From Chloroflexaceae bacterium (GTDB lineage: Bacteria; Chloroflexota; Chloroflexia; Chloroflexales; Chloroflexaceae), in contig JANQID010000075.1 of assembly GCA_028282325.1 (NCBI GenBank), positions 1 to 38,897 on the forward strand: DNA of 38,897 nt, read 5' to 3'. Below the pieces are notes generated by a model that was not told where the DNA came from, ran no database searches, and saw nothing but the letters and a program-made list of their open reading frames with translations. Each line of letters begins with the position of its first letter. Within the stretch, counting starts at the first letter, position 1. Shown here in pieces: positions 2,870 to 18,319 of the stretch. The position numbers and the translations under genes were made by a program.

Positions 2870-2902
2870 GGTGCAAAATATATGCAAAGGGTGTGCAGAT
2901 GC
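2870..2902 (+). promoter_or_regulatory. Array B: three phased 11-bp direct repeats, candidate CarH operator
   Basis: Consecutive 11-mers at 2870 (GGTGCAAAATA), 2881 (TATGCAAAGGG) and 2892 (TGTGCAGATGC), with TGCA in exact 11-bp phase. The array lies in the 277-bp gap before the sigma gene at 3073. It overlaps a weak promoter-like pair, TTGTAG (2856-2861) with 17-bp spacing to TATATG (2879-2884). Same core as array A and the carH promoter repeats; operator function is inferred. Confidence 0.55.
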
Positions 2903-3072: not shown

Positions 3073-4164
3073 GTGAACGCCTTCCGTGAAGTTAAGATAT
3101 CTAAGGATCGTCGGAATGTGAAAGCATCTCCAAGCAGCAGTACGTTGCCGGTGTGGGAAGCTGAAGGCGTATCGTCGACGTGGGATGTTGAAGATGCGTC
3201 ACCCGAAGACGCTCTGGTTGATGATGAAATCAGCGAAGAAGAAGAGGACTCAACACCAGTTGAAGACTCGATCCAACTCTATCTTCACGAAATTGGTCAG
3301 GTTCCTCTTCTGAACGCAAGCGAGGAAGTTGAACTGGCTCAATTGATTGCTCGTGGCAAGGAAGCCCGCAATCGTATGCGTAATGAGGCATACAGTTCCT
3401 GGCACGAACGCATCGCTCTTGAACAAGAAATTGCCCGTGGCGATGATGCACGCCGGCAGTTGGTTCAGGCCAACTTGCGTCTGGTAGTGAGCGTTGCGAA
3501 GAAATATATCGGCAGTTCGATGTCGTTTATGGATCTTGTGCAAGAGGGTAATATCGGTCTGATGCGTGCGGTTGAGAAGTTCGACTACACGCGCGGCAAT
3601 CGCTTCTCAACATATGCGACATGGTGGATTCGTCAGGCAGTCACGCGTTCAATCGCCGAGCAAAGCCGGTTGATACGTTTGCCGGTTCACCTGAGCGAAT
3701 CGATTACCCAGTTGCGTCGGGCGATTTATAAGCTTGAGCAAGAACTGGAGCGTGAGCCAACGCCGGAAGAAATTGCTCATACACTGGATATGAGCTTGCG
3801 CAAGGTCAAACGTTTGCTTCAGGCTTCAACACAACCCATCTCGATCGAGCAGCCGCTCAACAATGATAAAGAGGGGCGTATCGCCGAGATGCTGGCTGAT
3901 GAGACGGTTGAGACGCCCATGGAGGTTGCATCGCAGAATATGCTGCATGAGGATGTCCGGTCGATATTGAACGAATTGCCCGATCGCGAACGCAAAATTA
4001 TAGAATTGCGCTATGGACTATTTGATGGACGTCGTCGCACGCTCGAAGAGATCGGCGTAGCGTTTGGCATCACGCGTGAGCGCACACGCCAGATAGAGTC
4101 GGAAGCGCTCAAGCGGCTGCGCCATCCTAGCGTTGGCCAGCGATTGCAAGGGTATCTGGACTGA
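3073..4164 (+). CDS. RpoD/SigA-family RNA polymerase sigma factor (group 1 or 2)
   Basis: A 363-residue sigma-70 protein. An acidic, low-complexity N-terminus (about 35-63) replaces region 1.1. Region 1.2 is at about 64-98 ([16 protein letters not shown]), region 2 at 127-197 ([45 protein letters not shown]), region 3 at about 206-282, and region 4 at 296-349 with the -35 helix ([18 protein letters not shown]). The GTG start at 3073 is set by GGGAG at 3061-3065. It may be the principal sigma or a group 2 sibling; the short length and lack of region 1.1 fit either in this phylum. The phased array at 2870-2902 just upstream suggests regulated expression, which would favour a group 2 role. A strong bidirectional hairpin follows. 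Confidence 0.93.
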
Positions 4165-14751: not shown

Positions 14752-15720
14752 TTACGCCAACTCGCATTCGGCTCGCACGTGATCACGCCAATAGTTCAGA
14801 ATGTCGTTAAGCGTTTGCTCTAAGGGTATGCGCGGCTCCCATCCGGTGCATTCACTCAGGCGACGGGTATCGCACGATACTAACGGAACATCGATCGGGC
14901 GCATTAATTCCGGGTTCAGGTGAATGTCAACTTTGACCGAACTTGCGGCGACCAGCGAATCGAGAATGGCGCGAATCGTGACCGGTTTGCCGGATCCGAC
15001 GTTGTACACTTCACCCGATGCGCCGTGCTGCATAAGTAGTGCATAGGCACGAACAATATCGCGAACATCGGTAAAATCGCGTTGAGCCGCCAGGTTGCCG
15101 ACTTCTAACACCGGAGGTTGTAAGCCATACTCGATGCGCGCAATCTGTCGCGCGAGTGATGCTGTAACGAAACGCTCGTTCTGGCGTGGGCCGATGTGCG
15201 TGAAAGGTCGAACGCGTATTACGTCGAGACGATGGCTGAGATGATATTGAAGCGCTAGCATGCTTTGCGCGACTTTGCTTACGCCGTACGGGTTAGTTGG
15301 TCGGAGCGGCGTGGATTCGTCGAGCGGCATATCTTCAGTACGCACCTGGCCATATTCTTCATTGGTGCCAACTACCAGGATGCGGGTTTTGAGCCGATAT
15401 TCAATAGCCGTAAGAAAGATGTTGAGCGGCGCAAGAATATTCGTTTTCAACGTATCTGCCGGATCGCGAAAGGACTCAGGGACGAAGGGCTGCCCGGCTA
15501 GATGGAAAATATATCTTGGTTGCGCGTGGACGATGGCCTCTGTTGTCTGATTGTGATCCAGCAAGTCGGCGCATACGACCTGGACACGATCGCGTAACTG
15601 AGGCAGCCGGATCTGCGGGGATCGTGATAACCCCCAAACTTCCCATTCGTTCTGGGCCAGGAGATGTTCGGCCAGATGACTGCCCACAAAGCCGTTGATG
15701 CCGGTGATAAGCGCACGCAT
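14752..15720 (-). CDS. Nucleotide-sugar SDR (GDP-mannose dehydratase / RMD-like)
   Basis: A 322-residue extended short-chain dehydrogenase. The glycine motif GINGFVG at 7-13 binds NAD(P). The catalytic set is T119 in VGTNEEYG and Y145xxxK149 in NPYGVSKV. RPFTHIGPRQ, RDFTDVRDIV and the C-terminal MRPIDVP...SCDTRRL stretch are typical of GDP-6-deoxy-mannose synthesis enzymes, especially GDP-4-dehydro-6-deoxymannose reductases, although a 4,6-dehydratase cannot be excluded. ATG 15720 puts the Rossmann strand at residue 2; a GTG at 15741 would add seven residues. The neighbouring pyrophosphorylase (108 bp downstream on the same strand) suggests one supply route for a deoxy-sugar donor. Confidence 0.85.
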   Translation of the reverse strand: MRALITGINGFVGSHLAEHLLAQNEWEVWGLSRSPQIRLPQLRDRVQVVCADLLDHNQTTEAIVHAQPRYIFHLAGQPFVPESFRDPADTLKTNILAPLNIFLTAIEYRLKTRILVVGTNEEYGQVRTEDMPLDESTPLRPTNPYGVSKVAQSMLALQYHLSHRLDVIRVRPFTHIGPRQNERFVTASLARQIARIEYGLQPPVLEVGNLAAQRDFTDVRDIVRAYALLMQHGASGEVYNVGSGKPVTIRAILDSLVAASSVKVDIHLNPELMRPIDVPLVSCDTRRLSECTGWEPRIPLEQTLNDILNYWRDHVRAECELA

Positions 15721-15768
15721 GCCGCTACTATAACGTAACACCTGAATCGTTGCAACTCAAAATGTCGC

Positions 15769-15801
15769 TGTGCATTTTATTGACATGTATTGTGCATTGT
15801 G
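15769..15801 (+). promoter_or_regulatory. Array C: three 11-bp direct repeats at the carH promoter (CarH operator)
   Basis: Consecutive 11-mers at 15769 (TGTGCATTTTA), 15780 (TTGACATGTAT) and 15791 (TGTGCATTGTG). The middle repeat contains the -35 box and the third fills the spacer. Thermus CarH is known to bind three 11-bp direct repeats of type nnTnTACAnnn overlapping its -35; each unit here keeps four of the five fixed bases. Binding is inferred. Confidence 0.7.
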
Positions 15802-15808
15802 CTACACT
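15780..15808 (+). promoter_or_regulatory. carH promoter
   Basis: -35 TTGACA at 15780-15785, 17-bp spacer, -10 TACACT at 15803-15808 with extended TGC (15800-15802). The spacer contains ATTGTGC twice in tandem (15789-15802). The leader would be about 160 nt. Confidence 0.8.
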
Positions 15809-15975
15809 ACGACTGAATAAAGCAGAAAAACTACGTGACAGAACGAACAAAGTAAACGCATATCGAATGGGTCAACGTCGATCAAAAACATGCTGATCTT
15901 GCTAAGAGTAGGTGCATCGCTACGCATAATGCTCTGCGCTTCCGACTAGCAACGTAGGGGAGGAGGCCTCTTGTT

Positions 15976-16923
15976 ATGGCACAGCCAAACTTTCTGACGC
16001 AATTTTCCGACAAGCCTCGCTACAACACTAAAGCCGTCGCTCAAGAGACTGGCGTTCCTGCGGATACGTTTCGCGCCTGGGAGCGACGTTATGGCGTGCC
16101 TCGTCCGCAACGTACAGATGGAGGACACCGCCTCTATTCAGAGCGCGATATAGCGACGATACGCTGGCTCCGTGATCGCACTGCGGAGGGGCTGACTATT
16201 AGTCAGGCCATTGCCTTGATGTCTGATGGCAATGAGACGAATCTTGCCTGGCTCAATACCGCAGTTGATACAGAACCGCATACGTGGGAGCGATTGAACA
16301 GCCGTTTGTTCGACGCGCTGGCTGATTTCGATGCTACGCGCGCCGAGCAAATTATGGGCGAAGCGTTTGCACTCTATCCTCTTGAGGATGTGTTTGTCAA
16401 GCTCGTGCATCCGACAATGGTGCAAATTGGAGATCAGTGGCACGACGGTAAAGTCAGCGTTGCGGCGGAGCACTTTGCGACGCAGTTTATTCGACGAAAA
16501 CTCGCGAGTTTGCTCAATACCTATAATATAACCGATGGCCGGGGAATGATTGTGGTGGGATGTGCGCCAAGCGAGCAGCACGATCTCGGCGTATTGATGC
16601 TTTCGGTTTTTCTGGTGCGCCATGGCTGGCAGGTCATCTACCTAGGGCCAGAAGTGCCGATGAAAGATCTGCTGAACGCGGTGCATCACCTGCATCCTGA
16701 TATGGTGTGTCTGACGGCGTCAACGATTGAAGCGGCTATGCAGCTTCACGAGATTGGCAAGGCGCTGTCAGCGTTGCCGCCTCCGCGTCCGCACTTTGGT
16801 TATGGAGGACGCGCGTTTAATCTCAACCCGTCGCTGGTTGAGCGTATGCCAGGCAGCTTTCTCGGACGTGACGCCCAGGAAGCTGTAGATATGATCTCTG
16901 AGCTGTTAGTTGTCCATCGCTAA
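15976..16923 (+). CDS. carH: CarH-type MerR/B12-binding light-dependent repressor
   Basis: A 315-residue transcription factor. The N-terminal MerR helix-turn-helix is at about 15-83 (YNTKAVAQETGVPADTFRAW, RRYGVPRP, GGHRLYSERDIA). A helical cap (about 100-180) carries the photoreceptor motif: W155 and H156, then nine residues after W155, E165-H166 (Wx9EH). The B12 Rossmann domain has E200xH202DLG, with His202 as the expected lower cobalt ligand, then STIEAA and YGGRAF. In studied CarH proteins, adenosylcobalamin drives a DNA-binding tetramer in the dark; light breaks the Co-C bond and derepresses carotenoid genes. All key residues are present. GGGGAGGAGG upstream sets the ATG at 15976. Phytoene synthase follows on the same strand, and its own promoter has the expected operator. 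Confidence 0.92.
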   Translation: MAQPNFLTQFSDKPRYNTKAVAQETGVPADTFRAWERRYGVPRPQRTDGGHRLYSERDIATIRWLRDRTAEGLTISQAIALMSDGNETNLAWLNTAVDTEPHTWERLNSRLFDALADFDATRAEQIMGEAFALYPLEDVFVKLVHPTMVQIGDQWHDGKVSVAAEHFATQFIRRKLASLLNTYNITDGRGMIVVGCAPSEQHDLGVLMLSVFLVRHGWQVIYLGPEVPMKDLLNAVHHLHPDMVCLTASTIEAAMQLHEIGKALSALPPPRPHFGYGGRAFNLNPSLVERMPGSFLGRDAQEAVDMISELLVVHR

Positions 16924-17308: not shown

Positions 17309-18319
17309 GTGCCGTTGAATCCTCCCCATCGGCTGGCGCTTTCCATACCGCCCGGCGGCGAGTATATTGGGCAACCATTACCTGCCGAAGAACAACTGGC
17401 TCAGCTTTTTCTCCTTGCGGGCGCTTCATCTCTGTCGCGGCAGAACGATGAACATCCGACGGAGGGTTCGATCTCTCTTTCTGAAGCCTATCGCGTCTGT
17501 TATCAAGCAACCCGGCAGCACTCCAAGAGTTTTTTCTTTAGTACACAGCTTCTGCCTTCTGAAAAGCGGCGATCCATTCGAGCGCTCTATGCATTTGGTC
17601 GGATGAGTGATGACATTGTTGATCATCCTGACAGCGATCCGGCATATGCTCTGGCTGAGTGGGTGCGCAAGGTGCAATCGCCCAGAGCGCCGGCAAATGA
17701 CCCGATATTGCTGGCCTGGAATGATACGTGCGCTCGTTATGAAATCGACGGCGCTCTGGTCAACGAGTTGTTGGCAGGCTTCGCAATGGATCTGACCATC
17801 ACGCGGTATCAGACATTTGCTGACTTGTGGCTCTATTGCTATCGTGTGGCGTCGGTTGTCGGTTTGCTGAGTATGGGCGTGATTGGAGCTGCCCCAGGCG
17901 CAACTTCTTATGCTATAAAATTAGGGGTTGCGCTGCAAATGACAAATATTATTCGCGATGTCGGCGAGGATGCGCGCCGGGGTCGGATCTATTTGCCTCA
18001 GGAAGATCTCCGGGCATTTGGTCTGAGCGATGATGATATTCTTTCCGGTGTATATGATGACCAATTTCGAGCGTTGATGCAATTTCAGCTTGCGCGCGCT
18101 CATCGTCTATATGATGAGAGCTGGCCCGGCATCGCGCTCTTGCCGTACGATAGCCGACTGGCGGTTGGTGCGGCTGCTCGAGTCTATCGTGGCATCCTTG
18201 ACAAGGTTGCAGCGAATAAGTACGATGTTCACACGAAGCGCGCATTTTTAACCCTCCGCGAAAAGTTCCTTATGCTGCCACGTATCTGGCGTGATATTCG
18301 TCGTCTGAGTAGCCAGTAG
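17309..18319 (+). CDS. crtB: Phytoene synthase
   Basis: A 336-residue squalene/phytoene synthase-family enzyme that would join two geranylgeranyl diphosphates to phytoene, the first committed step of carotenoid synthesis. Both Asp-rich motifs are intact: DDIVD at 101-105 and DVGED at 217-221, within QMTNIIRDVGEDARRGRIYL, a strong CrtB signature. Conserved YCYRVASVVGLL lies near 176-187. The first 55 residues are an extra, poorly conserved leader. The GTG start at 17309 is supported by AAGGAGA at 17297-17303. Its place directly after carH, a known regulator of carotenoid genes in other bacteria, fits light-controlled pigment synthesis. A squalene synthase-like role is less likely given the motif context. 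Confidence 0.92.
   Translation: MPLNPPHRLALSIPPGGEYIGQPLPAEEQLAQLFLLAGASSLSRQNDEHPTEGSISLSEAYRVCYQATRQHSKSFFFSTQLLPSEKRRSIRALYAFGRMSDDIVDHPDSDPAYALAEWVRKVQSPRAPANDPILLAWNDTCARYEIDGALVNELLAGFAMDLTITRYQTFADLWLYCYRVASVVGLLSMGVIGAAPGATSYAIKLGVALQMTNIIRDVGEDARRGRIYLPQEDLRAFGLSDDDILSGVYDDQFRALMQFQLARAHRLYDESWPGIALLPYDSRLAVGAAARVYRGILDKVAANKYDVHTKRAFLTLREKFLMLPRIWRDIRRLSSQ

Follow-up and report, generated by a model that had tools for sequence, protein, structure and literature searches.

A probable autoregulatory operator-promoter of three 11-bp repeats upstream of carH in Chloroflexaceae

CarH is a light-responsive repressor that uses adenosylcobalamin (AdoCbl). In the window (the whole 38,897-nucleotide stretch of Chloroflexaceae DNA that was analysed), positions 15769-15801 are very probably the autoregulatory operator-promoter of carH, which AdoCbl-bound CarH would block in the dark and release in the light. 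This reading draws on the repeats, their register and conservation, the signature residues of the CarH product, the phytoene synthase neighbourhood and a geometry shared with Thermus. Operators of this kind are already known, and the TGTGCA variant is new within the literature searched. In that literature, outside whose scope most subscription papers lie, the search turned up neither a description of a CarH operator from Chloroflexota nor any binding, footprint or transcript data for a CarH of this phylum. A study of Chloroflexus from 2020 states that transcription in filamentous anoxygenic phototrophs responds to light, although no transcription factor acting on their photosynthesis-related genes had been identified (PMC7308566). 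The carH operator of Chloroflexaceae is a specific candidate for light control of genes that is testable in vitro.

Operator repeats, promoter and conservation

Direct reading of positions 15769-15808 gives TGTGCATTTTA / TTGACATGTAT / TGTGCATTGTG / cTACACT. Positions 15769-15801 consist of three abutting 11-bp repeats with the hexamers TGTGCA, TTGACA and TGTGCA; the repeats start at 15769, 15780 and 15791, a step of exactly 11 bp, as an earlier note on this DNA had stated. The same note had placed the -35 box within the second repeat and the third repeat in the spacer, as far as the extended -10; both placements agree with the promoter scan and with the 17-bp spacer. The features of the region are as follows.

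15769..15779, + strand: operator repeat 1, TGTGCATTTTA, of the TnnGCA type, from the sequence; TGTGCA in 33 of 33 distinct Chloroflexaceae upstream regions
15780..15790, + strand: operator repeat 2, TTGACATGTAT, containing TTGACA; TTGACA or TTGACG in all relatives
15780-15785, + strand: -35 box TTGACA inside operator repeat 2, from the promoter scan
15791..15801, + strand: operator repeat 3, TGTGCATTGTG, occupying the spacer and ending on the extended -10 TG; TGTGCA and TG invariant in relatives
15800-15801, + strand: TG of the extended -10, one base upstream of the -10 hexamer
15803..15808, + strand: -10 hexamer TACACT, 17 bp from the -35; family consensus TACAAT
15812..15818, + strand: expected transcription start, near 15815, placed solely from the position of the -10
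15959..15965, + strand: putative purine-rich ribosome-binding site before carH, from the sequence
15976..16923, + strand: carH, 315 aa, with MerR DNA-binding, B12-binding_2 and B12-binding domains, from domain and motif matches
17309..18319, + strand: gene of the phytoene/squalene synthase family; in most of the relatives checked it likewise follows carH on the same strand
14752..15720, - strand: divergent NAD-dependent epimerase gene, likely start ATG at 15720, from the ORF and promoter scan

The published register of the CarH repeat is nnnnTnnACAn (PMC9304148), so the repeat units of the earlier note are offset by 4 bp, with their spacing unchanged. Under this strict consensus the middle repeat passes alone, and the outer repeats fail as TnnGCA pseudo-repeats. 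A CarH operator is characterised by tandem direct repeats of 11 bp that overlap a promoter; this arrangement was found at 15769-15801, over the -35 box and the spacer. By eye, no fourth repeat in register was seen upstream or downstream of the triple.

The combination TTGACA-17 bp-TACACT with its TG was the sole promoter-like site detected by the promoter scan on the + strand before the carH ORF. Since TTGACA and an extended -10 are frequent in promoters, the region could be an ordinary strong promoter in which the repeats arose by chance. However, the expectation for the exact triple under a Markov model was only ~3e-6 in the window (~3e-4 in the genome), the triple with at most three mismatches matched once in the window against 0.01 expected from dinucleotide shuffles, and its relaxed form occurred once in the whole 4.6 Mb genome. 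With the triple conserved in all relatives and a reversed-pattern control of zero, the probability of a chance origin is practically nil, and the comparative data already refute it.

The relatives of the source organism place it in the Chloroflexaceae. Conservation was assessed from an unbiased pick of the best-scoring three-repeat match upstream of carH in relatives. In every Chloroflexaceae orthologue of at least 68 % identity with enough upstream DNA, this pick was TGTGCA-N5-TTGAC(A/G)-N5-TGTGCA, followed by TG-N and a TA...T -10. Both outer hexamers were identical in 33 of 33 distinct Chloroflexaceae upstream regions, with varying linkers and upstream flanks, and the middle hexamer ended in G in seven of the 33; this table was built from sequences already matching the outer hexamers, and the unbiased evidence is the best-score scan. 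The sequences are related and not independent, and the variation of the linkers shows that there was time enough for change. A pattern search of the family matched 31 of 41 genomes (reversed-pattern control, 0 of 41), and the distance from the operator to the carH start codon ranged from 92 to 380 bp across Chloroflexaceae. The carH triple of Roseiflexaceae was TGTGCA/TTGACA/TGTGCG, and related triples were present in one other family of the order. No clear triple was found near carH in Herpetosiphon-type regions or in most of the non-Chloroflexales regions examined.

The gene order around the operator was also shared, as phytoene synthase adjoined carH in nearly all relatives checked, at 50-90 bp in several and farther away in others. 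No Rfam match to an RNA element was obtained in the 160-nt leader of carH. A possible promoter of the divergent epimerase gene (- strand, -35 at 15755 and -10 ending at 15727) lies beside the operator and not under it. The epimerase transcript may be leaderless, with a -10-like TATAGT that stops 7 bp before the likely ATG at 15720 (window 15720-15755, - strand).

The CarH product and the proposed repression

The ORF at 15976 is identified from its domains and motifs as encoding a CarH. Its product matched the Pfam families MerR_1, B12-binding_2 and B12-binding, each above cut-off, and its nearest solved structures were those of Thermus thermophilus CarH (3whp and 5c8d); the Chloroflexus protein is 79 % identical to it. 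The best NCBIfam model was also CarH, with a score of 183.8 against a curated cut-off of 400. A Wx9EH motif was present (W155-HDGKVSVAA-EH, with E165 and H166), in which His follows Trp as in T. thermophilus, and an ExHxxG ligand motif contained His202. Within the longer B12 motif ExHx2Gx41SxV/Tx22-27GG, the ExHxxG, the spacing and the GG were present and the SxV/T triplet was TAS, a conservative change by which the strict pattern fails. The recognition helix reads RAWERRY, which conforms to RxWERRY, and the wing residues H51-R52 are retained. The residues that we take to form the dimer salt bridge and to supply one dimer-dimer glycine in T. thermophilus (R176, D201 and G160) are replaced by Q, E and I, and only G192 is preserved. 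As the interface is kept only in part, a tetramer of the Thermus type should not be assumed for this protein.

In the dark, AdoCbl-loaded CarH would form an oligomer bound to the three 11-bp repeats, all on one face of the DNA, with most of the sequence specificity probably supplied by the outer TGTGCA repeats. As the middle repeat is the -35 box, bound CarH would exclude sigma-A RNA polymerase. Exposure to light of wavelengths below about 530 nm would cleave the Co-C bond and the oligomer would fall apart, after which carH could be transcribed, together with the adjacent phytoene synthase gene where this is close enough for a shared transcript. Typical activating MerR proteins act on promoters with long spacers. 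The carH promoter, unlike these, has a 17-bp spacer with near-consensus hexamers that needs no activation, and it therefore fits the repressed type.

A different regulator might bind the repeats, with carH merely one of its targets. Such a regulator would fit the presence of similar TnTGCA triples at other places in the genomes and of a second small MerR-type domain (C33) encoded in the genome of the window. However, the same geometry is found at the orthologous Thermus promoter, where CarH is the known ligand (PMC9304148, PMC8156234), the triple is tightly tied to carH in every genome of the family whose upstream DNA could be read, and related repeats precede carH in Roseiflexaceae too. This makes another regulator very unlikely.

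Base preference in the outer repeats and further candidate sites

Position 4 of the outer repeats was G in 66 of 66 cases in Chloroflexaceae, compared with A in 35 of 36 half-sites in Bacillaceae. For the Bacillaceae, three full TnnRCA repeats were found before carH at only one of 30 loci, and tandem pairs were informative instead. The replacement of TnTACA by TGTGCA, which the earlier note had pointed out, thus holds for the outer repeats, where it is fixed throughout the family. The note had read it as a sign of altered base specificity in the MerR recognition helix, and this is rejected as stated because the RAWERRY core is shared with users of A and published rules admit either purine. In the comparison with TACA-using CarH proteins that it had proposed as a check, the RAWERRY core was identical. 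This core is common to the window protein, M. xanthus CarA (2jml), Bacillaceae CarH and one further protein (L088). The CarA operator has been described with TnnACA repeats (PMC9304148), and the repeats of L088 are TGTACA/TTGACA/TACACA.

A changed base-reading residue in the helix would explain the sharp divide between the 66 and the 36 positions, and one substitution goes with G in most Chloroflexales lineages: the residue that precedes the conserved Arg (L23 in T. thermophilus, F32 in the window) is Phe in Chloroflexales that use G and Leu in users of A. Against this, RxWERRY and the wing are unchanged, RAWERRY also occurs with TACA-type sites, and the middle repeat carries A, so that the same protein must read both bases. 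At the residue equivalent to F32, however, Leu is found in the RAWEQRY paralogues, whose repeats read TATGCA; this leaves F32 only a candidate, and the comparison spans few lineages and is confounded by descent. A changed base-reading residue is accordingly unlikely.

G might instead be a merely tolerated purine, fixed by chance inheritance with the preference of the protein unchanged. Published search criteria for CarH operators admit A or G at position 4, and TnnACA and TnnGCA are mixed within single operators of other Chloroflexales (L063 and L067-L069), for example TACACA/TTGACA/TGTGCA in L063 and TTGACA/TTTGCA/TTGACA in L067. Such mixtures indicate that closely related proteins can read both bases, with a strong lineage preference. 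Both outer hexamers have nevertheless stayed constant across the genera of the family though linkers and distances vary widely, and the folE sites of three genomes also carry G, which makes mere tolerance somewhat doubtful. The change from A to G in the outer repeats is a real lineage preference and not the sign of a rebuilt recognition helix.

Roseiflexaceae have a second CarH-like paralogue with RAWEQRY in the recognition helix (L079-L086), and TATGCA/TGTGCA tandem repeats lie ~300 bp upstream of L080-L085. In L080 the Wx9EH motif terminates in ER, so this paralogue may not need B12.

TnTGCA-type triples were also found elsewhere in Chloroflexaceae, several of them with TTGACA as the central hexamer and, 16-17 bp further on, an apparent -10. 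CarH-type triples preceded folE in three genomes of one genus (L114, L116 and L134) and a PTPS/QueD-type (6-pyruvoyl tetrahydropterin synthase) gene in two genomes of another (L130 and L131). In the window's genome, the triple TATGCAAAAAATGGACATGATATTTGCA (G000:C14:4806-4833, L091) precedes bchM, the gene for magnesium protoporphyrin methyltransferase, by ~165 bp. Others lie before a TetA-like MFS transporter gene (G000:C39:69698-69725, L094) and before a TetR-HlyD gene pair (G000:C103:18512-18539, L099), and the latter recurs before a TetR gene in another genus (L132). In the triples of L094 and L099 the central hexamer is TTGACA, followed 17 bp further on by TATACT/TATAAT.

Within the window, perfect TnTGCA triples with 11-bp spacing at 1538-1565 and 2872-2899 (both - strand) flank a polyprenyl synthase gene (1701-2795), and no other triple of this form occurs in the genome. 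In five relatives (L144-L147 and L149) a similar triple is found close to the orthologous prenyl synthase gene or to the downstream sigma gene, but it is not general. An operator common to the family before the sigma gene at 3073 was rejected: tandem hexamers within 600 bp upstream of the orthologues were found in only five of 30 genomes, and the site is thus not a general feature. Outside the phylum, a Halobacillus genome (L197 and L200) has TGTACA/TATACA/TGTACA-type triples away from carH that may mark further targets.

It is conceivable, if somewhat speculative, that the preference of Chloroflexaceae CarH has shifted to TnTGCA and that its light regulon extends beyond carotenoid synthesis to folE, PTPS, bchM and the region of the prenyl synthase and sigma factor genes. 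In filamentous anoxygenic phototrophs, CarH would then be a first transcription factor that responds to light. Control of folE is also known for LitR of Pseudomonas (PMC9758184).

Comparison with known CarH and LitR systems

Class II LitR of Pseudomonas shares TGTACA hexamers and the inclusion of folE among light-controlled genes, but its sites are arranged as TGTACA-N12-TGTACA and it works with a LOV protein (PMC9758184). In Bacillus and other Bacillaceae, tandem 11-bp repeats likewise lie upstream of carH (PMC9304148); these differ in the A at position 4 of nearly all half-sites found and in the four-repeat operators that have been reported. The CarH/CarA operators of myxobacteria also consist of 11-bp repeats with the -35 inside one of them, and mixtures of full (TnnACA) and pseudo-repeats are bound by CarH (PMC9304148). 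Binding has also been shown for CarH operators with a single full repeat (PMC9304148). The myxobacterial operators have three to five repeats of variable make-up, whereas the window has exactly three, of which the outer two are identical and invariant.

The closest likeness is with T. thermophilus, whose carH promoter on pTT27 consists of TGTACA-N5-TTGACA-N5-TATACA, with TACCCT at 17 bp from TTGACA. Three abutting 11-bp direct repeats, of which the middle one is the -35 TTGACA and the third lies in a 17-bp spacer, are common to both, and carH is adjacent to phytoene synthase in each. The Thermus autoregulatory layout over the -35, to which the earlier note had likened this region, is matched in identical register in pTT27 (PMC9304148). 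The differences are the outer repeats (TGTACA and TATACA compared with TGTGCA), a -10 that lacks the TG extension of the window, a phytoene synthase gene that is divergent in Thermus and co-directional in the window, and a first repeat 61 bp from the start codon compared with 207 bp.

The Thermus operator has been described as three repeats, one of which includes the -35 box, with pseudo-repeats in other species, and one head-to-tail dimer of Thermus CarH reads repeats 1 and 3 while the other reads repeat 2 by a single domain (PMC9304148, PMC8156234). In the window, repeats 1 and 3 match each other and do not vary among relatives, and repeat 2 is the -35 and tolerant of change, a pattern suggestive of the same dimer reading. 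One base fixed differently in the two phyla provides a natural experiment on how the MerR domain reads its repeats. That Deinococcota and Chloroflexota share this layout of an operator over the promoter suggests an old and strongly constrained CarH design.
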